Below, one piece after another: positions 13,913 through 61,993 of a DNA stretch of 64,000 bases. Source of the DNA: Laceyella sediminis. GTDB lineage: Bacteria; Bacillota; Bacilli; Thermoactinomycetales; Thermoactinomycetaceae. Position 1 is the first letter of the stretch, and each line of letters begins with the position of its first letter. The position numbers and the translations under genes are program-made. The stretch covers positions 124,001-188,000 of the forward strand of contig NZ_PVTZ01000004.1 of assembly GCF_003003125.1 (NCBI RefSeq), in the 5' to 3' direction. Below the pieces are notes generated by a model, which made no database searches, was not told the DNA's origin, and saw only the letters and a list, made by a program, of their open reading frames with translations.

Positions 13913-14881
13913 TCATTCGCCTTCTTCCGTGATCTCATCCAAGACATGATCAGCCAGTGCGGTGACAACTTTTCTATCAACCTTGCCTGCCACCGGTTGG
14001 GCCGCGTTCGCCGCTCCAGCCGCCACCGCTGTGGCCAGCGCGCGTTTTGCAGTAGAACCGTTGGCCAGACTCCACAAAAGTCCCCCCATAAATGCATCGC
14101 CTGAGCCGACGGGATTCACCACATCGACTTGCGGTGCAGGCACATGGTAATAGATCGATCGGTGATAAGCGACAGCCCCTTGGTCACCCAGCGTAATAAT
14201 GGGAAAGTCGATTCCTTTTAAGACTAAGTCCGCCAATGGTTTGCGCCAGTGTTGGAGGCTTGGCGCCGCTGGTTGCTCCCCGGCATCCGCTTTCGTCAGA
14301 GCCGCGAACTCATGCTGGTTCGGTGTGATGATGCTGGGCTGACAAGCGATGGCGGCCGCCAAGGCCGTGCCACTGGTATCAACAACCACACGTGCGCCCC
14401 GCTGACGGACAAAGCGAAGCAAGCTACGCCATTCCTCCATCGGAAGACCTGGCGGCAAGCTCCCGGAAAACACGACGATCATACCTGGGGTGATCAGAGA
14501 TTGGAGGCGCCTTTTTAACCGCTCCATTTGGCCAGCTGTCACATGTAAGCCCGGCTCCAAAATCTCTGTCGCCTTCTGGTAGCTTTCATCAATGATGGAT
14601 AAGCAGATGCGAGACTCTCCCTCTGGGACTTCGCAAAATGCGGCGTCTATTCCCTCTTCCTGCAATTTTCTGATGATGGTTTGCCCATTGTCCCCTCCCA
14701 CAAACCCGGTCGCCGTCACCGTCCCTCCCAAACGGTGAATGGTACGGGCTACATTAATGCCTTTTCCTCCCGCCTGGGTATACTTTTGCCGCACTCGGTG
14801 CACTTCCCCAGCTTGAAAATTATCCACTACATACGTGGTGTCCAAAGCGGCGTTTAATGTCACTGTCAAAATCCGGCTCAT
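13913..14881 (-). CDS. PfkB-family sugar-phosphate kinase (tagatose-6-P or fructose-1-P type)
   Basis: A 322-residue PfkB kinase of the 1-phosphofructokinase/tagatose-6-phosphate kinase branch: N-terminal VTLNAALDTTYVV, the substrate loop GGKGINVA, and the ATP/catalytic motif VGSGDAFMGG near residue 255. In this cluster, with AgaS and a GatY-type aldolase, the expected reaction is tagatose-6-phosphate to tagatose-1,6-bisphosphate; this is inferred from context. The start is ATG 14881 with AGGAGGGGG 5-8 bp upstream, not the earlier frame opening. It is the last gene of the amino-sugar cluster. Confidence 0.88.
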   Translation of the reverse strand: MSRILTVTLNAALDTTYVVDNFQAGEVHRVRQKYTQAGGKGINVARTIHRLGGTVTATGFVGGDNGQTIIRKLQEEGIDAAFCEVPEGESRICLSIIDESYQKATEILEPGLHVTAGQMERLKRRLQSLITPGMIVVFSGSLPPGLPMEEWRSLLRFVRQRGARVVVDTSGTALAAAIACQPSIITPNQHEFAALTKADAGEQPAAPSLQHWRKPLADLVLKGIDFPIITLGDQGAVAYHRSIYYHVPAPQVDVVNPVGSGDAFMGGLLWSLANGSTAKRALATAVAAGAANAAQPVAGKVDRKVVTALADHVLDEITEEGE

Positions 14882-14971
14882 ATCCCCCTCCTCATCTGCC
14901 TTACAAATCGAGTGCGAGGCATTGATGGAAAAACATGACAACCAATTCAGAGATAGCACCCATTTATGGCG

Positions 14972-15727
14972 TCACAACTTTTTAATGCGCCCCTTAAACC
15001 GTTCGATAAACCGCGCATTGGCCTCATCTCCGCCTGGTGCATTGCCGCTCATCCAAATCGGCGGCGTGATCCCTTTTTGCACCATCAGTCGTACCGCCTC
15101 TGCCATCACGCAGTTTAATAAGTAAGCGTTAGCAAAGGTAGACATGGCGGCGACCGGTTGATCCAGATTTGGAATGTTGATGACCGCATCTCCCACTTCT
15201 ACCTTGCAGTCTAAAACCACATCCACCAATTCAAACAGATTTTTTTTGCTCGGATGGCGGGCTGGATGGTTCTCCGGCGTGGCAGTGGCATGTTTCACAG
15301 AGGTGACGCCGATGGTGGTCACTCCCCGCCGTTTCGCTTCCAGCGCCGCGTCGATTGTCGCCGCGTTAATTCCATACGCGTTGACGATGATAAGTAAATC
15401 ACCCGCTTGCAGATTGTAATCGTCGATGACAATCGTCCCGTATCCCGGAGTGCGTTCAATGGCCATCGAGCGTAAGGCGCCCCCGCTCAAAAGGGTTCCT
15501 TCATCAAGGATGGCACTAACATGCATCAGCCCCCCGGCCCGGAAAAAGACTTCCTGCGCCCCCAGATTGGAATGACCCCCTGGGCCATACACATAAACGA
15601 TCTTATCTTGGCTGACATGGTCGGCAATTAGGCGCGCCGCTCGATTGACCGCGTCCGCTTCCTCACGCAGCGATTCCAAGTGAGCGACGATCTTCCGCAA
15701 ATACTGTTCCATGATGATCTCAGCCAT
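14972..15727 (-). CDS. SIS-domain sugar isomerase-like protein
   Basis: A 251-residue SIS (sugar isomerase) domain protein of the UPF0309-like group, predicted to bind a phosphosugar. Visible features are VYVYGPGGHSNLGAQEV (phosphosugar loop), DEGTLLSGG, and the second half with VGDAVI and the FANAYLLNCV helix. The start ATG 15727 overlaps the nagA stop by 8 bases and has AAGGGGG 9 bp upstream. Its precise reaction is unknown. It may act as an epimerase/isomerase or a phosphosugar-sensing partner alongside AgaS and NagB encoded nearby. Confidence 0.8.
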   Translation of the reverse strand: MAEIIMEQYLRKIVAHLESLREEADAVNRAARLIADHVSQDKIVYVYGPGGHSNLGAQEVFFRAGGLMHVSAILDEGTLLSGGALRSMAIERTPGYGTIVIDDYNLQAGDLLIIVNAYGINAATIDAALEAKRRGVTTIGVTSVKHATATPENHPARHPSKKNLFELVDVVLDCKVEVGDAVINIPNLDQPVAAMSTFANAYLLNCVMAEAVRLMVQKGITPPIWMSGNAPGGDEANARFIERFKGRIKKL

Positions 15728-16913
15728 CGGCACCGCCCCCTTGCATGTGGGTGTCTGCTTCATGCAGAATCGCCCCTTGTTTGATCGTGCGGAGTATCCG
15801 CACCTCCTCATCCTCCGGCTCAAACACGACCAAATCAGCCGGCGCACCGACAGCCAATCCCCGCCGCGCCGACAATCCCAAGTAAGCGGCAGGTCTTATT
15901 GATGCCATGTCCCATGCATCTTGCAATCTGCACAGTTGTTTCTTAAACAAGTTCCATACGCCCTGCCGCAAGGTCTGGACAGAACCGGCCAGCAGCTGCG
16001 GCCTACCTTTCAGATGGAGTTTGCCCTGCGGTGTCAACACCACGCGGCCGCCGATATGCGTCTCATACTCTCCCGGCTCACGCCCGCCCAGCTGCACCAC
16101 ATCACTGACCAGCATGGCTTTGTCCCGCTTCACGCGCATAATCACTTTGATGACCGAATCAGGCAAGTGAAACCCGTCGCCGATCATGCACGCCCACAAG
16201 TCCGGCTCGGCAAGCTGATCCCAAATGTAGTTGGGATGCCTGGGGAGCATCGGATGTGCACCATTGCCGAGATGGGTAGACAAGGTTGCTCCAGCCCGCA
16301 CCGCTAATGCAAGTTGCTCTGTGTTGGCCGCAGTGTGACCGATGGCCACTTTCACCCCATGCCGGACGCAGGATTCTATGAATTCGTGTGCGCCTGGCCA
16401 CTCCGGCGACAAGGTCACCAAGCGGATACGCCCGTCCGCCGCCTTTTGCCATCGCTCAAACAGTGCCCAATCCGGGGCTTTGACAAAGGCGGAATCATGA
16501 GCTCCACGCGGACCGTCCTGCGGCGAGATAAACGGGCCTTCCAAATGAATTCCCGGTATGACACGGTCAAGTGTAGGTAACTGGCGGATCGCTTCAGCAA
16601 CGGCCCGTACCGCTTCTTCAATTCCTTCGTCATGGTTGGTAATGATGGTTGGCAAATAGGCAGTCACCCCTTCCCGCCACAACATACGGGTCACGGCGGT
16701 GACCGAGTCGGGGGAAAAGGGCGGTGTATTCAAGTCCACCCCGCCGAATCCATTCACCTGCAAGTCAACCAGTCCGGGCGCCAGCCACGGCAAACCCGGT
16801 CGGTTCTGAATACGGCGGATATGGCTGATGATTCCCCCCTCGATTTCCACCGCAATCGAACATCCCGTCCGATAATCCACTCCCTCGATGTGTCGAATCT
16901 CAGTCTCCTGCAT
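15720..16913 (-). CDS. nagA: N-acetyl-hexosamine-6-phosphate deacetylase
   Basis: Amidohydrolase-superfamily enzyme that removes acetate from GlcNAc-6-P or GalNAc-6-P; 397 residues. Motifs: LAPGLVDLQVNGFGGVD (metal site at the start of the barrel), GIHLEGPFIS with the metal-binding Glu, AIGHTAA, THLGNGAHP, and the catalytic Asp in LVSDVVQLGG. THLGNGAHP differs from the usual THLFNAM, so the enzyme is divergent and may prefer GalNAc-6-P (AgaA role). It overlaps nagB upstream by 14 bases and the SIS gene downstream by 8, consistent with coupled translation. Confidence 0.9.
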   Translation of the reverse strand: MQETEIRHIEGVDYRTGCSIAVEIEGGIISHIRRIQNRPGLPWLAPGLVDLQVNGFGGVDLNTPPFSPDSVTAVTRMLWREGVTAYLPTIITNHDEGIEEAVRAVAEAIRQLPTLDRVIPGIHLEGPFISPQDGPRGAHDSAFVKAPDWALFERWQKAADGRIRLVTLSPEWPGAHEFIESCVRHGVKVAIGHTAANTEQLALAVRAGATLSTHLGNGAHPMLPRHPNYIWDQLAEPDLWACMIGDGFHLPDSVIKVIMRVKRDKAMLVSDVVQLGGREPGEYETHIGGRVVLTPQGKLHLKGRPQLLAGSVQTLRQGVWNLFKKQLCRLQDAWDMASIRPAAYLGLSARRGLAVGAPADLVVFEPEDEEVRILRTIKQGAILHEADTHMQGGGADG

Positions 16914-17691
16914 ATTCGCTCACCCCGTATGCAACCGTGTCCAGATACAATACCCCATCTTGGTGCCTGCGCAGGATCGACGCAGGGCAGTCCTCAGACA
17001 CGGGACCGGTAAGAGCTCTGCGCACCGCCTCGCGCTTTGTCGGACCTGGAACGACGCCAATCAGGTGATCTGCGGACATCAGTGCTGGCACAGTCAGAGT
17101 CAGCGCAGTCTGGGGAACAGATGCAAGATCAGGGAAACACCCGTCGTTTACCTGTTGTTGCCTGCATTTCTCGTCCAGGCAAACTGATTTGACAACAGCG
17201 GGGTCATTAAAATCAGCCACGCCGGGATCATTAAAAGCGATATGCCCATTCTCCCCAATCCCCAGGCACACAATGTCAATCGGCGCTTCGCTCAACAACT
17301 GGGCGTACCTGGTACACTCCCGCTCTGGATCACCGTCTGGCCGGATCAGTTGCACTTGCCCCGGGTGGACGTGGCGAAACAAATGTTCTTGCAGATAATA
17401 GGAGAATCGCTGAGGTGAGTCCTCCGGCAACCCGATATATTCATCCATATGAAACACCTCAACACATGACCAATCCACTCCTTCTGCGCGACAAAGATGC
17501 ATGAGTAGTTCATTTTGCGACGGTGCGGCCGCAAACACCATACGAACCCTTCCCTTACGCGCTTGCACTTCCTTCATCTTGTTCACAACCTCGGCCGCGG
17601 CCGCCGCACCCATGGCATCTCGGCTTTTGTAGACGCGAATCCGCAAATGGTCCACAGTGGTTTGCACGACTGGTTGCCATCTGGCATCCAT
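16900..17691 (-). CDS. nagB: glucosamine-6-phosphate deaminase NagB-like
   Basis: Isomerises and deaminates glucosamine-6-P to fructose-6-P and ammonia. The 263-residue length matches NagB. Motifs: FAAAPSQNE (phosphate loop), FHMDEYIGL with the catalytic Asp, and LGIGENGHIAFNDPG with the catalytic His and Glu. The start ATG 17691 has AAAGGGGG 6 bp upstream; the ATG two codons earlier is too close to the ribosome site. Sitting in a cluster with AgaS, it may act on galactosamine-6-P or handle a mixed GlcNAc/GalNAc supply. Confidence 0.9.
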   Translation of the reverse strand: MDARWQPVVQTTVDHLRIRVYKSRDAMGAAAAAEVVNKMKEVQARKGRVRMVFAAAPSQNELLMHLCRAEGVDWSCVEVFHMDEYIGLPEDSPQRFSYYLQEHLFRHVHPGQVQLIRPDGDPERECTRYAQLLSEAPIDIVCLGIGENGHIAFNDPGVADFNDPAVVKSVCLDEKCRQQQVNDGCFPDLASVPQTALTLTVPALMSADHLIGVVPGPTKREAVRRALTGPVSEDCPASILRRHQDGVLYLDTVAYGVSEYAGD

Positions 17692-17725
17692 GCCCATCCC
17701 CCTTTCCCGCAATCGGACGCGGTGC

Positions 17726-18598
17726 TTACGTCGACGAATCGCTGGCTTCCCCTTTGCTTTGTTGCGCCAGCAGGATTTTTCTCTTGGCCGCTTGTTTGAC
17801 CGCTTCCCGCGCTGTAAGGAAATAGCGGCGGGGGTCGGCCTCATTCGGATGCGCAAGCAAGTAGTCTCGCAAAGCTTCCGCAAACGGCAATTTTAGCTCA
17901 GTAGAAATATTCACCTTGCTGACACCACATTGCACCGACCGACGCACCCCTTCATCCGGCACACCTGACGCTCCATGCATAACCAGCGGGATGGCGACGC
18001 GCCGAGAGATCGCTTGCAACCTGGCGAAATCCAGTTGGGGCTCGCCTTTGTAAACGCCATGCGCCGTGCCGAACGCCGGAGCCAAAAAATCAATTCCGGT
18101 TCGGGCAACAAACTCTTCCGCCAAAGCGGGGTCCGTATAAGTGGCTTCCGCTTCACCGACAGAACCTACCTCCTCGGCTCCGCCAATGGTACCCAACTCT
18201 GCTTCCACGGGCACGCCAACGGCATGGGCGATCTCCACCACCCGTTTGACTAGCGCCACATTTTCTTCGAACGGAAGATGAGAGCCATCAATCATCAATG
18301 ACGTATATCCAGCACGCAAACATCGGACTACCGTCTCCACGCTGTCTCCGTGATCCAAGTGCAACGCAATCGGTACCTTGGCAGACTGTGCGGCCATCTT
18401 TGCCATCGACACCATGTAATCCAGCCCGACATAGTGAATCGTCCGTGGGGTTGTCTGGAAAATGACAGGGGCCTCCAGCTCTTCCGCTGCTTCGGTTACA
18501 GCCTTCATAACCTCTAGATTATGGATGGCAAACCCCACGACAGCGTAATGATGGCGATATGCGTCTTCCAGCATGGCTTTTGAAGTTACCAATGGCAT
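17726..18598 (-). CDS. class II aldolase, GatY/KbaY type
   Basis: Zinc-dependent class II aldolase of the fructose/tagatose-bisphosphate family; 290 residues. Zinc ligands and active-site motifs are visible: ALHLDHGD near residue 80, EAELGTIGG near 135, FGTAHGVYKG near 178, and VMHGASGVPDEG near 207. The short loop pattern is of the GatY/KbaY/AgaY type, so cleavage of tagatose-1,6-bisphosphate to dihydroxyacetone-P and glyceraldehyde-3-P is the likely role. GAGGAGGGG lies 8 bp before the start. It precedes nagB by 34 bp; a repeat element separates it from agaS. Confidence 0.9.
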   Translation of the reverse strand: MPLVTSKAMLEDAYRHHYAVVGFAIHNLEVMKAVTEAAEELEAPVIFQTTPRTIHYVGLDYMVSMAKMAAQSAKVPIALHLDHGDSVETVVRCLRAGYTSLMIDGSHLPFEENVALVKRVVEIAHAVGVPVEAELGTIGGAEEVGSVGEAEATYTDPALAEEFVARTGIDFLAPAFGTAHGVYKGEPQLDFARLQAISRRVAIPLVMHGASGVPDEGVRRSVQCGVSKVNISTELKLPFAEALRDYLLAHPNEADPRRYFLTAREAVKQAAKRKILLAQQSKGEASDSST

Positions 18599-18725
18599 GG
18601 CGACATCCCCTCCTCATCTATTCCGCCCATTGCCTCAACTGACTGGAAAAGCAGTTGTCTTCGCACCCCTACCAAGCGAATAAGAACACGGTTTTGAAGC
18701 CGCTGGTCTATACACCAGACACGCC
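18599..18725. other. gap between agaS and the aldolase, filled mainly by repeat copy 2
   Basis: This is the longest break inside the amino-sugar cluster between 13.9 and 29.9 kb apart from the MITE region. It contains the aldolase ribosome site at its left end and the repeat at its right end. Confidence 0.6.
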
Positions 18726-18728
18726 CTA
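18674..18728. repeat. MITE-like repeat, partial copy 2
   Basis: AGCGAATAAGAAC...GGTTTTGAAGCCGCTGG...CCAGACACGCCCTA aligns with the reverse complement of 13701-13760 at about 80 percent by eye. The end of the element (CTA on this strand) supplies the TAG stop codon of agaS, so the element abuts or has slightly remodelled the agaS 3' end. Confidence 0.65.
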
Positions 18729-19775
18729 TTCATCCAGCACAACCACTTGCTCCAGATTACGCGGCGAGTCTGGATTTAAGCCCATCTTCAACGTACGGTG
18801 ATAAGCAAACAGTTGCAAAAATGGCAAATACAACAGACTCCGGCTAAGATCGCCCAAACCGCTGTCCAATGCGATTTTCACGTTGCAATGGAAATCATCC
18901 AATCCATCGCCCAACACCACCGCGTCGGCTCCAAACTTCCGCACATCATCGACCAACGCTCGCTCATAAGAGCGAATCGCCCCATTGCTCAACAGGAGAA
19001 CGCGACATTGCCCGTCCAGTACCGAAATCGGGCCGTGGCGGAATTCAAGTGGGTTAAACGCTTCAGCGTACAGTTGTGTCATCTCCTTTAACTTCAACAT
19101 CCCTTCATAGGCCAAACCCAGATATGCGCCAAGACCCAGATAAATAAAATGACCATACGCTTCATCCGCCGCCAATGATTCTGCAATTGGTTCGACACGG
19201 GCAATGACCGATGCGCCGATGTCGGGCAGGCGTGACAATTCTGCCAAAAACCCTTCGTCCGCAGACAGGATGCCAGCAAGCAACTGTGAAACAAGCAACA
19301 GATTCGTAAATGAGCCAGTCATGACCACACTTTTCTCCTGGGAGTGGGGCAAGCTGATCACATCATCTGCTATGCGGGCTAACTCACTATCTGGTTGGGT
19401 GGTAATCGCGATGCAATGTGCCAGCTTGTTTTGCTGGGCATAGGCAACTGCTCGGACTACCTCCGTGGTGTTTCCCGAACGGGAGGAACCGATCAACACC
19501 GTCCGCTTGTTCTTGCCAAAAACGGCACCTGGATTGAGGAAAACTTCCGAAGCAGGCACCGCCTTGGCAGAAATCCCCGTTTTTTCCTGAAATGTCGACG
19601 CGGCGGTCATCGCAATGTAATAAGACGTTCCGCAACCGGTGAACAACACTTCATCCGGATTGAGGTTGTTAAAGAGTTGTTTCAACTCCGCCGCTTTGGA
19701 AAGCACTAATTTGATCGTCTGCCGCCAAGTCTCCGGCTGCTGTTTGATTTCTTGGTAGGTGTGTGTTTGCACCAT
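18726..19775 (-). CDS. agaS: AgaS-like SIS-domain deaminase/isomerase
   Basis: A 349-residue protein with two SIS domains, similar to the isomerase half of GlmS and to AgaS. AgaS converts galactosamine-6-P to tagatose-6-P with release of ammonia. Motifs: FTGCGTSYYIAM (first SIS loop, residues 45-57), IGSSRSGNTTEVV (phosphosugar loop, about 95-107), and LEFRHGPISVL with the catalytic-type Glu/His in the second domain. The start ATG 19775 has GGGGGAG 6 bp upstream. Its presence separates this cluster from plain GlcNAc catabolism and argues for GalNAc. Confidence 0.85.
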   Translation of the reverse strand: MVQTHTYQEIKQQPETWRQTIKLVLSKAAELKQLFNNLNPDEVLFTGCGTSYYIAMTAASTFQEKTGISAKAVPASEVFLNPGAVFGKNKRTVLIGSSRSGNTTEVVRAVAYAQQNKLAHCIAITTQPDSELARIADDVISLPHSQEKSVVMTGSFTNLLLVSQLLAGILSADEGFLAELSRLPDIGASVIARVEPIAESLAADEAYGHFIYLGLGAYLGLAYEGMLKLKEMTQLYAEAFNPLEFRHGPISVLDGQCRVLLLSNGAIRSYERALVDDVRKFGADAVVLGDGLDDFHCNVKIALDSGLGDLSRSLLYLPFLQLFAYHRTLKMGLNPDSPRNLEQVVVLDE

Positions 19776-19812
19776 CCGTCTCCCCCTCTTTTTTTTTGCA
19801 AGTGATGATCCA

Positions 19813-20781
19813 TTACGCCTTCTCCACTTTCTGCTTGGCGTAAAGCGCGCTGCCGATCACCCCCGCATCATCCGGCCAATGGGCCGTGCGTATCTTAAGG
19901 CGTGACCAGTATCCTTGATAAACGGATCGTTGCAACTCTTCCCGCATCGGCGCAAGCAACCGCTCCCCCGCTTCGGCTACTCCTCCGCCGATCACGACTA
20001 CGTCCGGACTGAATAGCGTCACGGCGTAAGCTAAAGCCCGGCCCAACACCCTGCCGGTGTGATCCAGCACTTCCCGCGCCACCCGGTCACCGGCGTCATA
20101 CGCTTTGGAGACGTCGGCCGCCGTTAATCCCGACAGATTGGCGGCGGGAAACCAAGTCCCTAAAACGCTCTGTTTCCCCTGGGCGACAGCCTCGCGAACC
20201 TGTCTGACAATGCCTGTGGCCGAAGCGACCGTCTCCAAACACCCCTGCATGCCACAAGCACAAGTAGCCTGTTCCCCCTCCATCCTCATGTGTCCGAGTT
20301 CGCCAGCCATAAAACCGCCGCCGTAATAAACCTGGCCCCGGACGACCACTGCCGCGCCTACCCCCGTGCCAAGCGTGATTCCCAGTACATGGTCATATCC
20401 CTTTCCGGCACCTGTGATCGCTTCGCCAAACACATACATCCGAACATCATTGTCAACAAAAACCGGAAGATTCAGTTTTCTACCCAACCGTTTCGCCACT
20501 TCCACACGGTTCCAACCGAGGTTTCCAGCAAACAGGGTAATCCCCTGTTCCGGATCAACTAGGCCGGGACTGCCCATTCCCACGGCCAGCACTTGACTGG
20601 TATCCCCTTGCCGAGATGAAATCAGTGTCTTTACCGTCTGGGCGATCGCCTCCAGCACATGTTCACTGCCGAGATGGGCTTTGGTTGGCCGCTTAATTTT
20701 TTCAAGCAGACGACCTTCACCATCCAACAGCCCGCATACGATGTTGGTGCCACCCACATCCATTCCCACCAGATATTTCAT
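19813..20781 (-). CDS. ROK-family sugar kinase
   Basis: A 322-residue ROK kinase. The N-terminal ATP motif is GMDVGGTNIVCGLLD, the catalytic Asp is in VFVDNDVRMY, the ROK signature is in the GELGHM region, and the zinc-binding CACGMQGCLE follows. No helix-turn-helix domain precedes it, so it is a kinase rather than a repressor. Likely reaction: ATP-dependent 6-phosphorylation of imported hexosamine or N-acetylhexosamine, which would be needed since the cluster's transporter is of the ABC type. The start ATG 20781 has ACGGGGGCG about 8 bp upstream. Confidence 0.9.
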   Translation of the reverse strand: MKYLVGMDVGGTNIVCGLLDGEGRLLEKIKRPTKAHLGSEHVLEAIAQTVKTLISSRQGDTSQVLAVGMGSPGLVDPEQGITLFAGNLGWNRVEVAKRLGRKLNLPVFVDNDVRMYVFGEAITGAGKGYDHVLGITLGTGVGAAVVVRGQVYYGGGFMAGELGHMRMEGEQATCACGMQGCLETVASATGIVRQVREAVAQGKQSVLGTWFPAANLSGLTAADVSKAYDAGDRVAREVLDHTGRVLGRALAYAVTLFSPDVVVIGGGVAEAGERLLAPMREELQRSVYQGYWSRLKIRTAHWPDDAGVIGSALYAKQKVEKA

Positions 20782-20832
20782 GATGATTCGCCCCCGTTTC
20801 ACGACAATCGCCGCACCATCTGCAAGAAGTGA

Positions 20833-23959: not shown

Positions 23960-23981
23960 GCACGTCACCCCCTTTCTCTCA

Positions 23982-26970: not shown

Positions 26971-27020
26971 CGCCAAATCCACCTTTTCATTCCATTTCGA
27001 AGAGTCACTCAAATACGCCA

Positions 27021-28163: not shown

Positions 28164-28180
28164 GGGCATGCTCCCCTTTC

Positions 28181-29896: not shown

Positions 29897-29930
29897 CGCG
29901 ATCCCTCCAGACTGCATGCGCTAAGATTGG

Positions 29931-30833
29931 TTATAACGCAACGGTTTCTCCGGTCAGGCGGCTTTCGTTCACCGCCTCGATGAAGCGGATGATTTGCCGT
30001 GTTTCCCGGAAATCAACAGGTGTTTTCCCTGTGGTGAACATCTCCATGATATGCGTGAGCAGACTGGCATAGTACGGTTTGGCGCTGGCGTTCACATCAA
30101 CGGCGCGCGTGCCCCCGCATCGATGGATTAAAGCGCCGAACCCATTGTTTCCCTTGCGGTTGCCGCGGACAACGCCTATACGTCCATCTTCCCACACCCC
30201 TACCGCCACATCCTGCTCATCGTTGCCTGCCGCAGTGACGCGGACACACCCTTTGCCCAGGATGGCAAATAGCATTTCCACGGTGTGAATTCCATACCAG
30301 AACCAACCGGGTTGCGTCGGTTCAAGCGGCATGGGGCCGTAACAATCCGCTCCGTAAACATCACCTTGTTCCGTTTCAGCTAGCGCCGTTGTCAGCGCTT
30401 CCGCGTAACGGAGCGCGGAGCAACTCAATACCGGCACCTGATATCGGTCGGCGAGAGCAAAGATTTTGTCCGCATCGGTGCTGGTGAGCGCCAATGGTTT
30501 ATCGATGAACACCGGCTTACCGTAGGGAGCAATTTTTTCAAATTGTTCCAAGTGCACCCGCCCATCAACGGATTCCAATAAGATGGCGTCGGCTTGTTCG
30601 GCGACGGTTTCAGGCGTGCTGACAATGGCAACGCCATACTGATCCGCCAGCTGACGCGTATATCCTTCAACGCGTGTTCGGCTCAGATCAAAATCAGGTG
30701 ACCCACCTGGATATGCCGCAATGACCCGCCCGCCCGGCACATGATGTGGTTCCTTTGGATCATGCAACAATTTCGTAAACGCCGTCACGTGCGACGTATC
30801 CAAACCGATGATGCCCAATCTCAATTCACTCAA
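29931..30833 (-). CDS. Gfo/Idh/MocA oxidoreductase (2 of 3)
   Basis: 300 residues. The N-terminus GIIGLDTSHVTAF is the variant Rossmann motif found in one Gfo/Idh/MocA subgroup, and VFIDKPLAL carries DKP in place of the common EKP. It has a short C-terminal domain. The start codon is TTG 30833 with AGAGGTG 7 bp upstream. It sits between another oxidoreductase and the glycosidase gene, 18 bp from one and 34 bp from the other. Substrate unknown. Confidence 0.85.
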   Translation of the reverse strand: MSELRLGIIGLDTSHVTAFTKLLHDPKEPHHVPGGRVIAAYPGGSPDFDLSRTRVEGYTRQLADQYGVAIVSTPETVAEQADAILLESVDGRVHLEQFEKIAPYGKPVFIDKPLALTSTDADKIFALADRYQVPVLSCSALRYAEALTTALAETEQGDVYGADCYGPMPLEPTQPGWFWYGIHTVEMLFAILGKGCVRVTAAGNDEQDVAVGVWEDGRIGVVRGNRKGNNGFGALIHRCGGTRAVDVNASAKPYYASLLTHIMEMFTTGKTPVDFRETRQIIRFIEAVNESRLTGETVAL

Positions 30834-30851
30834 GGTTTTTCACCTCTTCCG

Positions 30852-32012
30852 TCATGTATTGCTCCTTTCTGGATCCTCCGGCCAGCCAATAGGCAAAAAG
30901 GCGTTGGTCAGCGCCGACTCCCTCGCCCTCAAGCACATCAACGCACTTAGCAATCCGGCTTCCATCGGCGCAATCGACTTCGCCTCCCCTTTCATCACCG
31001 CGATAAAATTGCGGGCGAGCACTGCGTCTCCACCGAAGTGGCCCGCCTCTTCAGTCATTTCGTATGTCTCAACCACGGGTGAATGGTGCATGTAGACTTT
31101 GACCGCATTTGTGTAGAAGTCGAACTCCAACGTCCCTTTGTAGCCCAGTAAGCGGGCTCCCCGGCTTCCGGCCTTCCCTCTGGCGAAGAAATTTTGTGAA
31201 TAAGAGACATGCATCCCGGTCTCATATCGGATCAACGCGCTTCCTGCATCTTCATTCCCCGTATCTACCGCAAAGCAACAGTATTCACCGGCTGGTGTTT
31301 CATGGGGCAATCTGCGAATATTCACCGTGCTATCCGGACATGCATGCCGCTCATCGCAATCAACGCATTTGAGCCCGGCCGGTTTATTCCCTTTGAACAC
31401 CTGTTTGGACGTCATCGCGCAGATCAGCGTCGGTCGCATCCCCAACAGATAATTGATGTAATCAAAGTCGTGCGTCGCTTTTTGCAAAAACAATCCGCCC
31501 GTTTCCTTTTCATCGCGGTACCAGTGATGATAATACACCCCGCCGTAGGGCACATTGTTAACCGCTTGCACATGCTCCACCGTACCGATCTTTCCCGAAT
31601 CGATAATCTCTTTGACCAATGTCACCAACGGCGCCGCCCGAAGTGGGAAGGAAACCACCACCTCGGTTCCGGTCGCCTCATATTTCTGTTTGAGTCGAAG
31701 CAATGCGTGCTCATCAGTAGCCACCGGCTTCTCCAAAAACAGGGGAATTCCTTTCGGCAAGACTCTGATGGCCAAGTCCGCATGTAGCGAACACCGGGTG
31801 CCGATCAATATACCATGCAATTCGGCCTCCTGCACCATCGCTTCCGGACTGTCATAAAAAACGATCTCCGCAGCTTCCTCTCCCAACTCCTGCTTAATAT
31901 CATTGTTTTGCAAATCATTGATGGCCACCACCCGGCAATCCGGATCGATTCGGCGCATTTCCGCCACCATGTGCCGAATCCGCCGTCCATACCCGATAAC
32001 ACCTAACCGCAC
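30852..32012 (-). CDS. Gfo/Idh/MocA oxidoreductase (3 of 3) with a cysteine cluster
   Basis: 386 residues. Rossmann segment RLGVIGYGRRIRHMV, catalytic FLEKPVATD, and the histidine motif KATHDFDYIN. An unusual insertion, KCVDCDERHACPD near residue 215-230, holds three Cys and one His and may bind a metal or form disulphides. The start is GTG 32012 with AGGAGGG 7-8 bp upstream. It is the first gene after the transporter permeases, so it probably acts early on the imported sugar. Confidence 0.85.
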   Translation of the reverse strand: MRLGVIGYGRRIRHMVAEMRRIDPDCRVVAINDLQNNDIKQELGEEAAEIVFYDSPEAMVQEAELHGILIGTRCSLHADLAIRVLPKGIPLFLEKPVATDEHALLRLKQKYEATGTEVVVSFPLRAAPLVTLVKEIIDSGKIGTVEHVQAVNNVPYGGVYYHHWYRDEKETGGLFLQKATHDFDYINYLLGMRPTLICAMTSKQVFKGNKPAGLKCVDCDERHACPDSTVNIRRLPHETPAGEYCCFAVDTGNEDAGSALIRYETGMHVSYSQNFFARGKAGSRGARLLGYKGTLEFDFYTNAVKVYMHHSPVVETYEMTEEAGHFGGDAVLARNFIAVMKGEAKSIAPMEAGLLSALMCLRARESALTNAFLPIGWPEDPERSNT

Positions 32013-32024
32013 CGCCGTTCCCTC

Positions 32025-32870
32025 CTATCCTTTAATGGCCCCTTGCATGCCGGAAACGAAATAGCGTTGCATCATCAGATAGAAAACGATGATCGGCAAC
32101 AAGGAGACCACCGTGCCAGCAGCCATGACTCGCACATCATCGCCAAAGGTGCCCGACAAATACGCAAGCCCTAGCGCCAAGGGATACAAGTCATCATTCT
32201 TTAACACGATCAACGGCCAGATGAAGGAATTCCACACGGATATGAACGAAAATACGCTTAACGCCGCCAGCGTCGGTTTCGTCAATGGCAACATGATGCT
32301 CCACCACATCCTAAACGGGCCGCATCCGTCCAAAATGGCCGCTTCCTCCAGCTCTTTCGGAATGCTGAGATACGCTTGCCGCATCAAAAAGATGGAAAAT
32401 CCGCCCACCAGTCCCGGAATGATCAATCCCCACCACGAATCGATGAGCCCCAGTTTTTGCGTAATGATAAACAACGGCACCAGTTTTCCTTCTTCCGGAA
32501 AAAACATGGTGCCGATAATTGCATAAAAAATCAGATCCCGACCCGGAAACGTCATCCTCGCCAACGGATACGCGGTCAATGAGGTTAAAAACAGGTGGGC
32601 AGGCACCATCACCACGATCAGGATGAAGGAATTCAACAAATATTTCGGGAATGGGATCACCGTCAGAGCCTCCACAAACTGATCCCATACCGGCGGTTTC
32701 GGGATCAAGTCTGGCGGAAATGTGAATACATCCTGTGCATTCGATTTGAACGCCGTCGACAGAAGCCACAAAAAGGGACCGACAAATAAGAGTGCGATCA
32801 AAAGAAGCAACAGGTACATCAACGCTTTGCGCGCGATGGCAATCCCCATGCGCTTGCGCTTCGCATTCAT
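32025..32870 (-). CDS. sugar ABC transporter permease, MalG/UgpE type
   Basis: 281 residues with six hydrophobic segments. The EAA loop that docks the ATPase is visible as EEAAILDGCGPFRMWWSIMLPL near residue 185, and the C-terminus SGMQGAIKG is typical of carbohydrate-uptake family 1 permeases. Its ATG overlaps the stop of the preceding permease gene (ATGA), so the two subunits are made together. The cognate ATPase is not in the window; a shared MsmX-type ATPase elsewhere is the usual solution in Bacillales. Confidence 0.93.
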   Translation of the reverse strand: MNAKRKRMGIAIARKALMYLLLLLIALLFVGPFLWLLSTAFKSNAQDVFTFPPDLIPKPPVWDQFVEALTVIPFPKYLLNSFILIVVMVPAHLFLTSLTAYPLARMTFPGRDLIFYAIIGTMFFPEEGKLVPLFIITQKLGLIDSWWGLIIPGLVGGFSIFLMRQAYLSIPKELEEAAILDGCGPFRMWWSIMLPLTKPTLAALSVFSFISVWNSFIWPLIVLKNDDLYPLALGLAYLSGTFGDDVRVMAAGTVVSLLPIIVFYLMMQRYFVSGMQGAIKG

Positions 32871-33784
32871 CCTACCCGCCCCCCGTTGGACAACTTGAAA
32901 TTAATGACCGTCAAAACCATCAAAATGAGCCAAAGCACCATCCCCATCGCCGTCGCATACCCCATATCTAGCTCGACGAATGCTTTTTGATAAATGTACA
33001 GCGGCAATGTCAACGTGCTATCAAATGGCCCACCACCCGTCATGATATAGATGCTGGTAAACATCTGCACGCTAGCCAACGTGGATAAAACAAGGATCAC
33101 AGCAATGGTCGGCCGTAATTGCGGCAAATAGACATGCCACAATACCCGCAATCGGCCGGCACCATCCATCTTGGCAGCCTCCACCAACTCCTGTGAAATC
33201 GTCTGCAATCCGGCGAGATAGATCACCATGTAAAAACCAAGCGATTTCCAAACTTCCAGCACAGCAACGGCAGGGAGGGCGGTGTCGGGGTTTAGAAGCC
33301 AGTTGACAGCCTCTTTTTGTAGGCCGATTCCCTGCAAAACGGCGTTAAGCAAGCCGGCGGGATGGTATAAATATTTCCACACGATGGCCACCGCCACCAT
33401 CGAGGTGACCACAGGCAAATAGTAGATCACCCGAAACAATTGGATGCCTCGCAGTTTCTGATTGACCAATATCGCGAGGAACAAAGGCACCGTTAACAGC
33501 AAAGGAACGATGATAAGGAAGTATGTCAAAGAATTGCTGACCGCGATCCAAAACTTCGTATCTTGCATCAATGCCCGATAATTCTCCCATCCCACCCATT
33601 CGGCGGGAGACAGGATGTGGTACTCAGTGAATGAATAATAAAAGGCACTGAAAATAGGCAAATAGTCAAAGGTGAAGAACAATAGCAACGCCGGAAGTAA
33701 AAACAGATAAGGGAGTAAGGGAATGTTCCGCCTCTTTTTTTTAGATGCGCGATATTCGGTGGTTGGTACGATTTCATTGCCCAA
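32867..33784 (-). CDS. sugar ABC transporter permease, MalF/UgpA type
   Basis: 305 residues with six membrane segments after a basic N-terminus (SKKKRRN). EAA loop: VEAAKMDGAGRLRVLWHVYLPQL. The start is TTG 33784, with GGGGGGAG 7 bp upstream; the frame continues upstream to 33847, through a hairpin, and is not expected to be translated there. Partner of the MalG-type permease downstream and of the binding protein upstream. Confidence 0.92.
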   Translation of the reverse strand: MGNEIVPTTEYRASKKKRRNIPLLPYLFLLPALLLFFTFDYLPIFSAFYYSFTEYHILSPAEWVGWENYRALMQDTKFWIAVSNSLTYFLIIVPLLLTVPLFLAILVNQKLRGIQLFRVIYYLPVVTSMVAVAIVWKYLYHPAGLLNAVLQGIGLQKEAVNWLLNPDTALPAVAVLEVWKSLGFYMVIYLAGLQTISQELVEAAKMDGAGRLRVLWHVYLPQLRPTIAVILVLSTLASVQMFTSIYIMTGGGPFDSTLTLPLYIYQKAFVELDMGYATAMGMVLWLILMVLTVINFKLSNGGRVG

Positions 33785-33813
33785 ATCGCATCTCCCCCCA
33801 TTGAAGAAAATCG

Positions 33814-33856
33814 GGCGGCGAAAAAGGGCTTCGCCGCCTGTGCCCATATGGGCGGC
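33814..33856 (-). promoter_or_regulatory. mutually exclusive hairpins between binding-protein and permease genes
   Basis: GGCGGCG (33815-33821), CGCCGCC (33832-33838) and GGCGGC (33851-33856) can pair as left-centre or centre-right. Such hairpins commonly trim or attenuate the transcript so that the binding protein is made in excess over the permeases. Confidence 0.5.
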
Positions 33857-35139
33857 TATGACTTGGCAAGGGCTTCATTCCAATGCTTGACTGCTGTATC
33901 AAGTGCATCTTTCACTGTTTTTTTCCCAAGCATGGCCGCCCGGATCTGTTCTAGGTAAAACTCGCGCAGTTCTTTTTGCTTGGGATGGCCCATGTAAGTC
34001 AAGGTGAGGTGGGGAGCGTAGGTAACCATCATTTTGCGCGCATGGTCTTGAATCGTTTTCACCTCAAAATTAGTGAAAAAGGGATCTTTCAACGTATCTT
34101 CCGTCGAAGGGAAGATTGGGACCAACTTGCAAAATTCCAACTGTTTTTGTGGGCTGGTCAAGTATAGAGCAAAGTCGGCCGCCTCTTTGGGATGTTTTGC
34201 TTTCTTGGGTATCACAAACAGCTGGATATCCTTGACCGCCACTTTTCCCGTGGCGGTGACTGGCGGAACCACTTTCAGTTTGGACAGGACATTGGGCGCA
34301 TTTTTCTCAATGTTGTTCAACTGAAACGAGCTGGCCAAACCGACGTGCGCCGTCAATCCGTTGTCAATGGTTTGTTGTAATTGTCGATCATCTTTTACCA
34401 GCGCTCCCGGAGCAATCGCCCCGTCCTTGTACGCTTGGATGAATTTTTCCACAAATGCGATGTGTCGAGGAGAATTGAATACAGCCTTCTTCCCATCGGC
34501 GCTTAATATCGGCAATCCTTCGGTGGTGAACGTTTCCAACCCAGGCAAGTCATTGGAGCCATAAACATGGGGCAATCGCTGATGAATTTGTTTGCCATAT
34601 GCAAACAGTTCATCCCACGTTTGCGCCGGCTTGTCGGACGGAAGTCCCGCTTTTTGATACAGCTCGGTGTTGACCAAGCCGATTGGTGGTCCGGCATGGT
34701 ACCAAGGAATGGCCATCACTTCGCCATCACGGTTGGTCACGCTTTTAACCAGCCCGTCAATATAAGGGGCCATTTTCTCTTTGGCGACAACCTCTGAAAT
34801 CGGTCTTAATGCATGATACCCTTGCAAAACGGATAATCCTTCACTCGTCTCGTTGACCAAATCGGGAGCGCTACCGCTTGACAAAGCAGTGAACAACTTT
34901 CCGGTCATGTCCGCCCCGGGAACATCCACCCAATGGATATCCACATTGGGGTGGTTTCTCTCATACTCCTGGATGGCACCCTCGATGTAACCCGAGAAAT
35001 TTTTCTTCAGGTTGATCGTCCAAAACTCCAGCTGAACCCGTTCGGATTTGTCAGCCGCCGGGTCGGAGCCAGTGCAACCTGTCATTCCCACAACCAACAA
35101 GAAGGACAAGACCCAAGTCGCCGCACGACTGATATTCAT
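33856..35139 (-). CDS. sugar ABC transporter substrate-binding lipoprotein
   Basis: 427 residues, family 1 solute-binding protein. A signal peptide with lipobox-like GMTGC places the lipid-anchored Cys at residue 22. The mature protein has the usual LEFWTINLKK start, SGSAPDLVNETSEG and IPWYHAGPPIGLVN segments. It captures the oligosaccharide outside the membrane and passes it to the two permeases encoded downstream. ATG 35139 has AGGGGGAAA about 6 bp upstream. Confidence 0.93.
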   Translation of the reverse strand: MNISRAATWVLSFLLVVGMTGCTGSDPAADKSERVQLEFWTINLKKNFSGYIEGAIQEYERNHPNVDIHWVDVPGADMTGKLFTALSSGSAPDLVNETSEGLSVLQGYHALRPISEVVAKEKMAPYIDGLVKSVTNRDGEVMAIPWYHAGPPIGLVNTELYQKAGLPSDKPAQTWDELFAYGKQIHQRLPHVYGSNDLPGLETFTTEGLPILSADGKKAVFNSPRHIAFVEKFIQAYKDGAIAPGALVKDDRQLQQTIDNGLTAHVGLASSFQLNNIEKNAPNVLSKLKVVPPVTATGKVAVKDIQLFVIPKKAKHPKEAADFALYLTSPQKQLEFCKLVPIFPSTEDTLKDPFFTNFEVKTIQDHARKMMVTYAPHLTLTYMGHPKQKELREFYLEQIRAAMLGKKTVKDALDTAVKHWNEALAKS

Positions 35140-35161
35140 CTTTGTTTCCCCCTTGGCCCTC

Positions 35162-36838
35162 TTATTCCAATTTCATGCGGTAAAGTTGAACCAATCGTTC
35201 GATCTTGCCATTCCATAATGCCGCTGTTTCCTTTGGAATATGGATGCCCGTCAATGCGCGGATCTCAAGCGATAGGATACTGAGTGACTGAATAGCACTA
35301 CGATTCCGTTCCGAAAAATGGGCGTCGATGGCCCGGTTCATCTTGTTCAACAGGCTGCGCTTAATCCCATGACGAAGATCAGCGTTGACAATCTCATCCT
35401 GCAACTTATAGGAAACGTAAGCGGCTTCGACCGCTCGGAACGCCTTTTCGCGGCGATTGGGGTCGTAAATGATATTCTCGCCGATCATCCCAGCGTAACT
35501 GCTGGAAATGCTCCAGCCGCTTTTCTTCTCAAAACCGCTGTTCTTCATCGCGAAACCGCGTGCGTTGAAGTCATCAAACCCGACATTGTCCCAATAATTT
35601 CTGACTCCATTTTTCTCATACAACCGGATCGTCAATGTCGCCGATGTTTTCCCAGTGAGGTAAGGGGTTAAGTCCAGATTCACCTCTTCCCACTGGCCGC
35701 TCACGGTGTTTTGGGCTACATCCTGCTCCCACACCACCTGCTCATCAATCAACAGTTGCTTGATGTGATAGCCCTCCAATTTGGGACCTTCGGCCATCGT
35801 TCGGAAAGAAAGCGCATAGTTGCCTGATCCATCCGGATGGATAACCTGGCTGGCGGAAACGTTATCACCCGGCTTGGTCGAAACCCCCGACGGCACAAAG
35901 AAGCTCATATAGCCGTTGCCAGTAGCCGCCTTCTTGTCAGGCTCTGCAATAAACTCTTTCTCCAATTCATACGTGATCATGCCTGCCAGTTTACCTTTCC
36001 GCAGATTGTCCACTGCTGTCTGGACCGTTTCGCGAACATATTCCACCGATGGGTTGCCAGGCGTGTTGGTCAAATACGAAGTGTACACCATCCACACGAG
36101 GGGCAAATTGTATTTTTTTAACAACTGGTAAGCTTCATCAATCTGCTGTTGCTCAGTGGACCAGACCGAGGTGTTGCGGTAAGGATCATCGCGGTAAGCT
36201 ACGATCACACCATCGATATAGTCTCCTCTGGTTTTCAGAAATTCGTCTGTCAAGGCAGGGAAATACATGAGGGGCATGAACGAAGGCAAGAACTTCAGAT
36301 TGGGGTTAATCACTTTGGAGGCTTCTCTCATCTTCGCCATATATTCTGGCGTGAAGAAATCAAGGTTGTGGTTGAAGTCGTCAATCGCCCAACCGATGAG
36401 ATTGTCGTATTGTACAGAAAGCTCGGCAATCGCTTTCCCCCACGCCACATAATCCGTGGTATATGGGTAAGATTTGCGGCTACCGGTCGATTCCGATGGG
36501 GGAACCAAATACAAAATAACATTGATGCCGGCTTTCTTGGCAGCGGGCAAAAACTCGTCTTTGAAGTCGTCCCAATCGGTCGGTTGGTACCAGTTCAGAT
36601 AATAATACGTATTGACGTTTAATTCTTTCAGTTTTTTGATCATAGCCGGAGTGTCCACATGCCGGACCCCGTCGGCCCGTGGTGTGGCTTCCCGCTCAAA
36701 TCCCGCATAATCGGACAGTTTGGCGTCTATGTGACTGCGGTTGGACACAGGTTCCGCTTTCACAACCGGGGGTGGGCCGATGTTCAACGCCCCCCACAGG
36801 ATGACAATCAGGGCCAACAAGTACATCCCTTTTTTCAT
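35162..36838 (-). CDS. secreted TIM-barrel-like protein, probable glycan hydrolase
   Basis: 558 residues, family not recognised with certainty. A signal peptide (MKKGMYLLALIVILWGALNI, cleavage probably after VKA near residue 28) is followed by a region (about 55-310) of glycosidase TIM-barrel character: NVNTYYYLNWYQPTDWDDF, INVILYLVPPSE, IGWAIDDFNHN with paired Asp, and VIVAYRDDPY. A beta-sandwich region (about 320-450) ends in DNVGFDDF, resembling carbohydrate-binding modules, and a helical C-terminus follows. No lipobox, so it is released or wall-bound. As first gene before the importer it probably cuts the external polymer. Confidence 0.7.
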   Translation of the reverse strand: MKKGMYLLALIVILWGALNIGPPPVVKAEPVSNRSHIDAKLSDYAGFEREATPRADGVRHVDTPAMIKKLKELNVNTYYYLNWYQPTDWDDFKDEFLPAAKKAGINVILYLVPPSESTGSRKSYPYTTDYVAWGKAIAELSVQYDNLIGWAIDDFNHNLDFFTPEYMAKMREASKVINPNLKFLPSFMPLMYFPALTDEFLKTRGDYIDGVIVAYRDDPYRNTSVWSTEQQQIDEAYQLLKKYNLPLVWMVYTSYLTNTPGNPSVEYVRETVQTAVDNLRKGKLAGMITYELEKEFIAEPDKKAATGNGYMSFFVPSGVSTKPGDNVSASQVIHPDGSGNYALSFRTMAEGPKLEGYHIKQLLIDEQVVWEQDVAQNTVSGQWEEVNLDLTPYLTGKTSATLTIRLYEKNGVRNYWDNVGFDDFNARGFAMKNSGFEKKSGWSISSSYAGMIGENIIYDPNRREKAFRAVEAAYVSYKLQDEIVNADLRHGIKRSLLNKMNRAIDAHFSERNRSAIQSLSILSLEIRALTGIHIPKETAALWNGKIERLVQLYRMKLE

Positions 36839-37969: not shown

Positions 37970-37982
37970 TCCCCGCCACCTC

Positions 37983-38960: not shown

Positions 38961-38996
38961 CACATCTCCCTTCAAACGCCTCGTTCCCTTGCAACA

Positions 38997-61884: not shown

Positions 61885-61915
61885 AAAAAGACAAAGACAC
61901 ACCCGTCTTTGTCTT
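61885..61915 (-). terminator. riboswitch expression-platform terminator
   Basis: Perfect 11 bp stem AAGACAAAGAC / GTCTTTGTCTT with a six-base loop and five Ts on the minus strand, 70-100 bp before xpt. Confidence 0.85.
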
Positions 61916-61922
61916 GTTGCCC

Positions 61923-61993
61923 ACCCGTAGTCGGATGATTTACGGTCATCCGGTAGAAACTCGCAAGCCAATTCTTGCGATTATATGAGGGAC
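61923..61993 (-). ncRNA. guanine-class purine riboswitch aptamer
   Basis: Minus-strand signature CTCATATAATCGC, GTTTCTACCGG and CCGACTACGG of the purine riboswitch, in the right order and spacing. P2 is made by GCAAG / CTTGC and P3 by GGATGA / TCATCC. The base that sets specificity (position 74, in GACTA) is C, so guanine, hypoxanthine or xanthine is the ligand rather than adenine. P1 pairing is weaker than in B. subtilis xpt. High guanine should favour the terminator and shut off xpt. Confidence 0.9.

Follow-up and report, generated by a model that had tools for sequence, protein, structure and literature searches.

A conserved operon of Laceyella sediminis that combines a probable GalNAc route with an unexplained accessory gene set

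Which glycan is consumed through a tightly packed run of genes when only a part of them belongs to a known pathway? This question is raised by a locus of Laceyella sediminis (family Thermoactinomycetaceae), a member of a heat-loving bacterial genus, whose assembly GCF_003003125.1 counts 3.39 Mb in 43 contigs. The window, by which we mean the whole stretch of 64,000 nucleotides that was analysed (contig NZ_PVTZ01000004.1, positions 124,001 to 188,000), contains on its minus strand a run of 20 genes between positions 36838 and 13913, in which neighbouring open reading frames (ORFs) are separated by -158 to 127 bp. A sequence-only reading had described here a one-strand cluster with short gaps or overlaps for the use of N-acetylgalactosamine (GalNAc) glycans, and this layout is confirmed. 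In reading order the genes are SecTIM, SBP (solute-binding protein), permA, permE, Gfo3, Gfo2, GH123, GNAT, PDA, DegT, APe2, Gfo1, Cer, ROK, agaS, gatY, nagB, nagA, SIS2 and pfkB; these names are our own and the families come from Pfam and NCBIfam profile searches. All the families proposed by the sequence-only reading were recovered, namely PfkB, NagA, NagB, a class II aldolase, an AgaS-like SIS protein, ROK, a ceramidase-like protein and GH123_cat by Pfam, and also three Gfo/Idh/MocA proteins, AP_endonuc_2, DegT, GNAT, two permeases with a solute-binding protein and a secreted protein. It had omitted PDA (25213-27021), SIS2 (14972-15847) and a hexuronate module at 37310-40915.

The gene order is kept in Laceyella sacchari, where the proteins are 93-99% identical, and for this reason the run cannot be ascribed to chance. 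The 20 genes are one real, conserved operon, composed of a core of known type, the probable GalNAc route, and of an unexplained accessory set. The negative gaps between PDA and DegT, gatY and nagB, and nagA and SIS2 are probably due to over-long ORF starts; later starts shrink several of the overlaps, and a Shine-Dalgarno-like sequence is found at DegT 25220, SIS2 15727 and pfkB 14881.

The core is made of seven genes:

18726-19775, minus strand: AgaS, an AgaS/GlmD-type SIS deaminase-isomerase (from profile scores, PDB matches and linkage)
17726-18598, minus strand: GatY-type class II ketose-bisphosphate aldolase (PF01116 336.9 bits; NF009374 367.3 bits, cut-off 383)
13913-14959, minus strand: PfkB-family hexose-phosphate kinase, likely start 14881 (TIGR03168 295.6 bits, cut-off 216.4)
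15720-16913, minus strand: NagA-type deacetylase, a divergent second copy (TIGR00221 about 213.5-213.9 bits, cut-off 225.65)
16900-17883, minus strand: NagB-type isomerase/deaminase, the genome's second copy (PF01182 90.9 bits)
14972-15847, minus strand: SIS2, a SIS-domain protein of the PRK02947 family, likely start 15727 (NF002805 251.4 bits, cut-off 135)
19813-20802, minus strand: ROK-family sugar kinase (PF00480 241.2 bits; TIGR00744 222.7 bits, cut-off 260)

The genome holds a canonical nagA (404.2 bits, over the cut-off) with an adjoining nagB on another contig, and elsewhere a second class II aldolase, 47% identical to the cluster GatY; the cluster copies are therefore extra, dedicated paralogs. 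Concerning gene starts, the alignment with the nagB relatives of T. daqus and Lihuaxuella begins only at residue 70, and the true nagB start is probably near 17676. The profile search detected no helix-turn-helix domain in the ROK kinase.

The strongest evidence on the function of the core comes from its linkage in other genomes. We searched 42 genomes of the order for AgaS matches at E<=1e-50 and obtained 15 matches in 13 of them, 12 of at least 44% identity with the window's own protein included; the three others, 37-38% identical, belong to genus g17, have no adjoining gatY and were dropped from the linkage count, which thus covers 12 of the 15. A GatY-type aldolase lies in one run with AgaS in 11 of these 12 close relatives (the window's included), T. 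daqus being the exception, and a full-length PfkB gene is found in or with the agaS run in nine (in Laceyella, beyond nagB, nagA and SIS2). A tenth pfkB, on contig 5 of genome G091 (G and L numbers are our handles for genomes and loci), is split over two frames. The GatY-type aldolases share 58-100% identity with that of the window, compared with 45-53% for the remaining class II aldolases detected at E<=1e-80; one of each kind is present in the window's genome. In G091, agaS, gatY and the split pfkB are followed downstream by an AgaW equivalog (353.4 bits, cut-off 300), that is, a subunit of the GalNAc phosphotransferase system (PTS), and the same run also holds an AgaE-like IID subunit at 342.4 bits, below its cut-off of 500. 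In Lihuaxuella (G007) a gatY-pfkB-agaS run adjoins an AgaR-like repressor (204.4 bits, cut-off 260). The relatives of agaS, gatY and pfkB travel together through the order, and this supports a GalNAc-type route. The sequence-only reading had proposed a full route from a GalNAc polymer to triose phosphates, and it is this linkage, with AgaW in one relative, that speaks for it. The assignment rests on linkage and not on enzymology, no single protein proving GalNAc, and we consider it likely for the operon.

As a side observation on G091, the two frames of its pfkB overlap (L097, 3199-4087, minus strand), and the agaS, gatY and two GalNAc PTS subunit genes of this run are intact ORFs.

The main competitor for the core is a cluster serving N-acetylglucosamine (GlcNAc) type sugars, in which AgaS and NagB would both be glucosamine-6-phosphate deaminases and PfkB and GatY would act on fructose phosphates. 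The scores do weigh on that side and against GalNAc: AgaS ties between the NCBIfam models for AgaS (agaS_fam, 153.8 bits, cut-off 529.2), GlmD (154.4) and GlmS (156.2), all far below cut-off, its best PDB match is the glucosamine-6-phosphate deaminase 1j5x (122 bits, the best tagatose-isomerase-labelled chain reaching 112), and for its relatives in the G091 and Lihuaxuella runs it is the GlmD model that gives the highest score (170.7 and 180.7 bits; cut-off 580). Similarly, PfkB scores highest as 1-phosphofructokinase, with 295.6 bits for that subfamily, over the cut-off, 271.7 bits for the 1-phosphofructokinase model, below it, and 218.1 and 201 bits, again below, for the tagatose-6-phosphate kinase models. 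Of the two names given by the sequence-only reading, AgaS is ambiguous by score, and the tagatose type of the kinase is not settled by it either. The same side is favoured by T. daqus, which keeps SecTIM, GH123, PDA, DegT and agaS with no gatY or pfkB in the stretch fetched, and whose genome has one class II aldolase at 47% identity and PfkB relatives at only 32-35%. What argues against GlcNAc is that a dedicated aldolase and kinase stay beside agaS in the relatives, though the window's genome has another class II aldolase, that AgaW lies downstream in G091, and that a C-terminal Lys of the solved deaminases 1j5x and 2dec, presumably the one with a role in GlmS, is replaced in eight of the nine AgaS proteins read, a small sample of the 12 close ones. 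Gln stands at this position in the window, G345, G106, G200 contig 1, G091 contig 12 and G007, and Pro in G200 contig 24 and G091 contig 5; Lys is found only in T. daqus, which is thus alone with Lys among the nine and alone among the 12 in having no adjoining gatY. Taking both sides together, we consider service to GlcNAc-type sugars unlikely and retain the GalNAc assignment.

The accessory set consists of eight enzyme genes, which are interleaved with the others:

25213-27021, minus strand: PDA, 602 residues, with a GATase/ThuA-like N-terminal domain and a NodB-type deacetylase domain (PF01522 25.3 bits, cut-off 23.1)
23982-25265, minus strand: DegT/DnrJ-type aminotransferase, likely start 25220 (PF01041 281.5 bits)
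22071-23108, minus strand: Gfo1, a Gfo/Idh/MocA dehydrogenase, closest solved structures 3q2k/3q2i
29931-30833, minus strand: Gfo2, a short divergent Gfo/Idh/MocA protein (PF01408 31.9 bits), member of the recurrent PDA-DegT-Gfo2 unit
30852-32012, minus strand: Gfo3, a Gfo/Idh/MocA oxidoreductase by Pfam, keeping the EKP Lys and the active-site His motif
23099-23968, minus strand: APe2, a xylose-isomerase-like TIM barrel of sugar isomerase/epimerase type (PF01261, AP_endonuc_2, 95.4 bits)
20833-22074, minus strand: Cer, a short neutral-ceramidase-like protein (PF04734 38 bits, cut-off 32.1)
27021-28184, minus strand: GNAT acetyltransferase-like protein (PF13527 67.2 bits)

To judge whether these genes are accidental passengers, their recurrence was followed through PDA, which a search at E<=1e-20 detected in 17 of the 398 genomes of the class; 8 loci were supplied by a named genome collection. 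The survey covered 20 loci besides the window, in stretches that reach only about 3-19 kb from PDA, so that more distant genes are missed. A DegT relative lies near PDA in 17 of the 20, with at least 64% identity in 16 of these; Gfo2 is present in 12, SecTIM, Gfo3 and Cer (at least 36% identity) in seven each, Gfo1 (at least 43%) in five, GH123 and GNAT in three each, and the complete GalNAc block in one (L. sacchari). Since strong full-length DegT genes number only two in the window's genome (465.8 and 280.2 bits, the 12 further matches being weak and partial), the closeness of PDA and DegT is not expected by chance; the loci compared come from related genomes and are not independent.

The link to the core is seen in the same 42 genomes, where PDA occurs in 15 and agaS in 13, all 13 of them among the 15 and none among the other 27 (Fisher p 4e-9). 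With one entry per genus the counts are 8 of 10 versus 0 of 17 (p 2e-5), and without the three 37-38% matches 10 of 15 versus 0 of 27 (p 2e-6); relatedness inflates all these p-values. PDA and agaS lie within 16 kb of each other in eight of the 13 genomes, that is both Laceyella, T. daqus, the three g17 genomes, G200 and G091, the agaS-gatY-pfkB run of the latter two being on the strand opposite to PDA. The association of SecTIM is weaker (11 of 15 PDA genomes versus 9 of 27 others, p 0.02). Some observations count against the coupling: in five of the 13 genomes with both genes, agaS and PDA are not neighbours, being 1.2 Mb apart in G345 and on different contigs in the others; two of the 15 PDA genomes, Paenactinomyces (G008) and G313, have no agaS match; and no agaS block was seen near PDA in the loci of Paenibacillus, Cohnella, G120 and G393, genomes that were not searched for agaS as a whole. 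On balance the accessory set is real and is coupled to the AgaS route across the order by genome co-occurrence and proximity.

The sequence-only reading had also suggested a distinct catabolic system, to be sought as a gene set in other Bacillales, a name that is right in the broad sense (Thermoactinomycetaceae). We ran this search, and partial sets were found in T. daqus, Paenactinomyces, whose cluster lacks agaS to pfkB, and Lihuaxuella, whose cluster keeps nagB-nagA-SIS2 with gatY-pfkB-agaS on another contig; among the genomes examined, the complete 20-gene set was found only in Laceyella. The co-occurrence of PDA and agaS supports the view that the combination is meaningful; a fixed 20-gene system finds no support.

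The neighbours of PDA vary by lineage. GH20C, enolase-superfamily, epimerase-like and regulator genes occur in the families f2 and f4, in different subsets, and GH20 occurs in g17. Pfam places heparinase II/III-like genes near PDA in L020, L021 and L086, and in L085 with a score just at the cut-off; enolase-superfamily genes are near it in L017 and L085 by Pfam and in further loci by similarity. The PDA units of L085, L087, L088, L082 and L084, which have GH20C, enolase-superfamily, a second DegT, epimerase-like genes and an unassigned protein of 357 residues in different subsets, look like another uncharacterised glycan cluster.

At the outer end of the operon, the genes for capture, import and cleavage of the substrate are as follows:

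35162-36838, minus strand: SecTIM, a secreted TIM-barrel protein of 558 residues (AlphaFold 2 model; signal peptide read by eye)
33856-35139, minus strand: solute-binding protein of an ATP-binding cassette (ABC) importer (PF01547 90.3 bits)
32867-33847, minus strand: permA, UgpA-like ABC permease, possible start 33784 (PF00528 69.6 bits; NF007852 128.7 bits, below cut-off)
32025-32870, minus strand: permE, UgpE-like ABC permease (PF00528 51.9 bits; NF008210 137.4 bits, below cut-off)
28181-29917, minus strand: GH123-type protein, former DUF4091 (PF13320 287.7 bits, cut-off 23.1)

Both permeases are of CUT1 type. The best PDB matches of GH123 are 5l7v and 5l7r at about 153 bits, the former labelled as a glycoside hydrolase, and 8k2j and 5fqe, labelled as beta-N-acetylgalactosaminidases, reach about 95 bits. 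Its consecutive pair Asp360-Glu361 is invariant in the window and in three related genomes. The protein has in common with the GH123/DUF4091 beta-N-acetylgalactosaminidases NgaP, CpNga123 and BvGH123 both the GH123_cat domain, with the score given above, and the catalytic Asp-Glu pair, and differs from them in that no signal peptide was seen by eye. According to an excerpt of PMC11087588, the Asp-Glu motif is present in 94% of 734 DUF4091 sequences, the majority of which are expected to be beta-N-acetylgalactosaminidases.

Concerning SecTIM, no Pfam or NCBIfam family was found at E<=0.001. Its AlphaFold 2 model (mean confidence, pLDDT, 87) shows a TIM barrel, a beta-sandwich and a C-terminal helical bundle, and a structure search returned only generic glycoside-hydrolase barrels (best Z 18.7, root-mean-square deviation (rmsd) 3.6 A over 271 aligned residues). 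Because the TM-scores of the SecTIM and PDA models are 0.16-0.54 in the 50 Foldseek matches listed for each, we assigned neither to a family on this ground. The pair Asp153-Asp154, just past strand 4, is invariant in 15 sequences (the sets used for invariant residues contain some genomes twice, as overlapping loci were fetched twice). A placement in clan GH-A was considered and rejected: the barrel matches many such enzymes, yet the predicted end of strand 7 is without Glu and the invariant pair comes after strand 4, which is the arrangement of substrate-assisted hexosaminidases. A search at E<=1e-10 detected SecTIM in 20 of the 398 class genomes, and these 20 belong without exception to the same order. 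A relative in G200 (L064) directly adjoins a GntR-like gene (by eye), agaS, gatY and pfkB, and the distance from SecTIM to agaS-gatY-pfkB in G106, and to gatY-pfkB in G237, is at most about 7 kb; against a fixed role, seven of the 11 SecTIM regions fetched are without other relatives of the cluster proteins. We regard SecTIM as no more than a good candidate glycosidase of an undescribed family. The window's genome has a second SecTIM gene (contig 1 of G000, 180754-182373, L061), amid genes that recur around SecTIM in other genera.

From these elements we propose one operon for the uptake and full breakdown of a GalNAc-containing oligosaccharide. SecTIM, as a putative secreted glycosidase, would cut or capture the polymer, and the ABC importer would take in the fragments; no ABC ATPase is present among the 20 genes, so the importer would have to obtain its ATPase from elsewhere. 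In the cytoplasm GH123, to judge from its family and catalytic pair, would remove beta-GalNAc by substrate-assisted catalysis, and the ROK kinase, NagA, AgaS, PfkB and GatY, whose linkage was described above, would then convert GalNAc through tagatose 6-phosphate and tagatose 1,6-bisphosphate to triose phosphates, with NagB and SIS2 possibly serving a parallel or auxiliary branch. Finally, the fragment would also hold a second amino sugar, a modified one, as the target of PDA, DegT and the Gfo proteins together with APe2, Cer and GNAT: its N-acyl groups would be removed by PDA, perhaps with Cer, DegT would swap the freed amine for a ketone and one of the Gfo proteins would reduce it. For this last step family and gene order suggest both the reactions and the substrate. 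Taken as a whole, the five-step account seems to us moderately probable. It is weakened by the absence of a regulator among the 20 genes and by a promoter signal of three promoter-like matches upstream of the operon versus 0.6 in shuffles, these being consensus matches only.

The core steps are those of the aga/gam pathway of E. coli, streptococci and gut bacteria, which in an excerpt of PMC12118421 proceeds by deacetylation, deamination-isomerisation by AgaS to tagatose 6-phosphate, a kinase and a tagatose-bisphosphate aldolase. However, aga/gam uses a PTS where our operon has an ABC importer and a ROK kinase, and the operon adds GH123 and the eight further enzyme genes Gfo1-3, DegT, PDA, APe2, Cer and GNAT, its AgaS also being divergent from the curated family.

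The accessory proteins themselves give a less uniform picture. DegT keeps the pyridoxal phosphate (PLP) lysine Lys213, which is invariant, and in PDA the stretches SxDSD, HELAFH and SNKNHYTR are invariant in nine sequences, as are Asp296/Asp298 and His346. Domains of the PDA model (pLDDT 73) resemble GH42-type and ThuA/GATase folds, with Z up to 17.7, and three chains of deacetylase fold, 1z7a, 3cl6 and 3qbu, with Z 13.4-14.2; a match to human NDST1 (595 columns, TM 0.27, rmsd 12.5) was too weak to be retained. Gfo1 scores 185.4 bits with 3q2k and 174.1 with 3q2i, the next structure being at 93.9; we take these two to be WlbA dehydrogenases, which oxidise C3 of UDP-GlcNAcA, the tool labelling them only as oxidoreductase and dehydrogenase, and our literature search did not find their paper. 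The EKP Lys and the active-site His motif kept by Gfo3 have recognised roles in Gfo/Idh/MocA enzymes. Gfo1 and Gfo3 were also considered as NAD-dependent alpha-N-acetylgalactosaminidases of family GH109; the GH109 entry 2ixa was not among the matches of Gfo1 at E<=1e-15 or of Gfo3 at E<=1e-5, which does not by itself exclude this role. Cer keeps the HTH and CH motifs and has GCCGD in place of the NSGD typical of the family. A glycosphingolipid substrate, for which the ceramidase-like protein and GH123 were considered together, is not favoured because the ceramidase match is weak (38 bits) and Cer has no PDB relative at E<=1.

Several of these features speak against the roles given in the last step. 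The metal site of PDA is atypical, since the canonical NodB motif is an Asp-His-His site and its second His is not evident in the nine-sequence alignment; DegT has 7b0m as best PDB match (about 210 bits), with WbpE 3nu7 well below (106.5); and Gfo1 scores higher as inositol dehydrogenase (138.8 bits) than as UDP-GlcNAc 3-dehydrogenase (110.0), both NCBIfam models below cut-off, and is not found in three of the four related family clusters.

Two other readings concern the accessory set. PDA, DegT, Gfo1 and GNAT could be a biosynthetic set for a cell-surface 3-amino or 2,3-diamino sugar, located in a catabolic operon for another reason. The similarity of Gfo1 to 3q2k/3q2i, presumably WlbA, fits this. 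What the operon has in common with the Wbp/Wlb pathway to 2,3-diacetamido-2,3-dideoxyuronic acids is a dehydrogenase nearest to these two structures together with a DegT enzyme. Also fitting is the WbpB-WbpE-WbpD order of reactions, with C3 oxidised, aminated by a PLP enzyme and acetylated, in an excerpt of PMC10622841, whose reference 10 concerns WlbA from B. pertussis and C. violaceum. In Paenibacillus sp. J31TS4, moreover, a nucleotidyltransferase gene precedes the unit, which could mean biosynthesis. Nevertheless, the genes share one closely packed run with the importer and the catabolic enzymes, and the genomes bearing PDA coincide with those bearing agaS. The operon differs from the Wbp/Wlb pathway in its importer and catabolic genes and in its DegT, which is, as said, nearer to other DegT enzymes than to WbpE. 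The conserved partner is a deacetylase-like protein, standing in the place of WbpD, and not an acetyltransferase, GNAT being near PDA in only three of the 20 other loci; a hexapeptide acetyltransferase, which is the WbpD type, is absent from the 20 genes, and GNAT is the sole acetyltransferase found by Pfam. The recurrent neighbours, including heparinase-like, GH20/GH20C and enolase-superfamily genes, point the same way, and we judge a biosynthetic role very unlikely. The other reading assumes as substrate a glycan with uronic acid, such as teichuronic acid or chondroitin, whose uronic or amino-uronic part is handled by the extra enzymes and by the hexuronate module:

37310-40915, minus strand: hexuronate module with KDPG aldolase-type, PfkB kinase, short-chain dehydrogenase/reductase (SDR) and UxuA genes (Pfam matches), 471 bp upstream of the operon

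The position of this module on the same strand, its presence also in L. sacchari and the occurrence of PDA beside heparinase II/III-like and enolase-superfamily genes in other genera are in favour, and the module is possibly linked in function to the operon. Against it, the fetched stretches of T. daqus, Paenactinomyces and Lihuaxuella contain no hexuronate genes except for a weak SDR match, and no Pfam match to a lyase, sulfatase or glucuronidase was found among the 20 genes. The literature matches listed for Laceyella, chondroitin or teichuronic acid contained nothing specific. We hold a uronic-acid-containing substrate to be rather unlikely; it is compatible with the five-step GalNAc account and would specify its substrate.

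In J31TS4 (L019, 7086-12995), a PHP-domain gene stands with the nucleotidyltransferase gene before Gfo2-PDA-DegT.

Returning to the catabolic account, the presence of a DegT enzyme with its PLP lysine and of a deacetylase-like protein inside a catabolic operon is most simply explained by Wbp-type chemistry running in the other direction. A related logic is that of the ong cluster for oxidative chitin use, which in an excerpt of PMC9537276 involves deacetylation, removal of the amino group and a KDG kinase step; the deaminating enzyme here would instead be the DegT aminotransferase, and the likeness noted is one of reaction steps. A more ambitious form of this idea, which we regard as unlikely, is that the PDA-DegT-Gfo unit would be an undescribed catabolic route for the deamination of rare N-acylated sugars such as the 3-acetamido sugars or 2,3-diacetamido uronic acids found in bacterial walls. 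Its chemistry would be deacetylation, transamination to a 3-keto sugar and reduction, that is the Wbp pathway reversed with a deacetylase for the acetyltransferase. The unit would have evolved together with AgaS-type GalNAc catabolism throughout the order and been fused to it in Laceyella, which would scavenge the wall polymers of its neighbours, and SecTIM would found a new glycosidase family. Wall polymers of Geobacillus stearothermophilus, GalNAc-containing and mannuronic-acid-containing ones, are mentioned in an excerpt of PMC2571106, one of whose reference titles names a wall polymer containing diacetamidodideoxyuronic acid; such polymers would be plausible candidate foods of the operon.

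If this were true, bacteria would reuse the chemistry for building amino sugars to consume unusual ones, a subject on which our full-text literature search found no paper. Possible new glycosidase and deaminating activities are represented here by definite proteins that can be expressed, SecTIM and those of the PDA-DegT-Gfo unit, and the search for the substrate can follow the link between PDA and agaS-gatY-pfkB through many genomes together.

Elsewhere in the window, an ORF of 234 residues (41204-41908, minus strand) matches the PF00282 pyridoxal-dependent decarboxylase model, which has 375 positions, over positions 221-373 only and is possibly a remnant or a split gene. The sole Rfam match in the window at gathering thresholds is a purine riboswitch of 77 bits at 61908-62008 on the minus strand.

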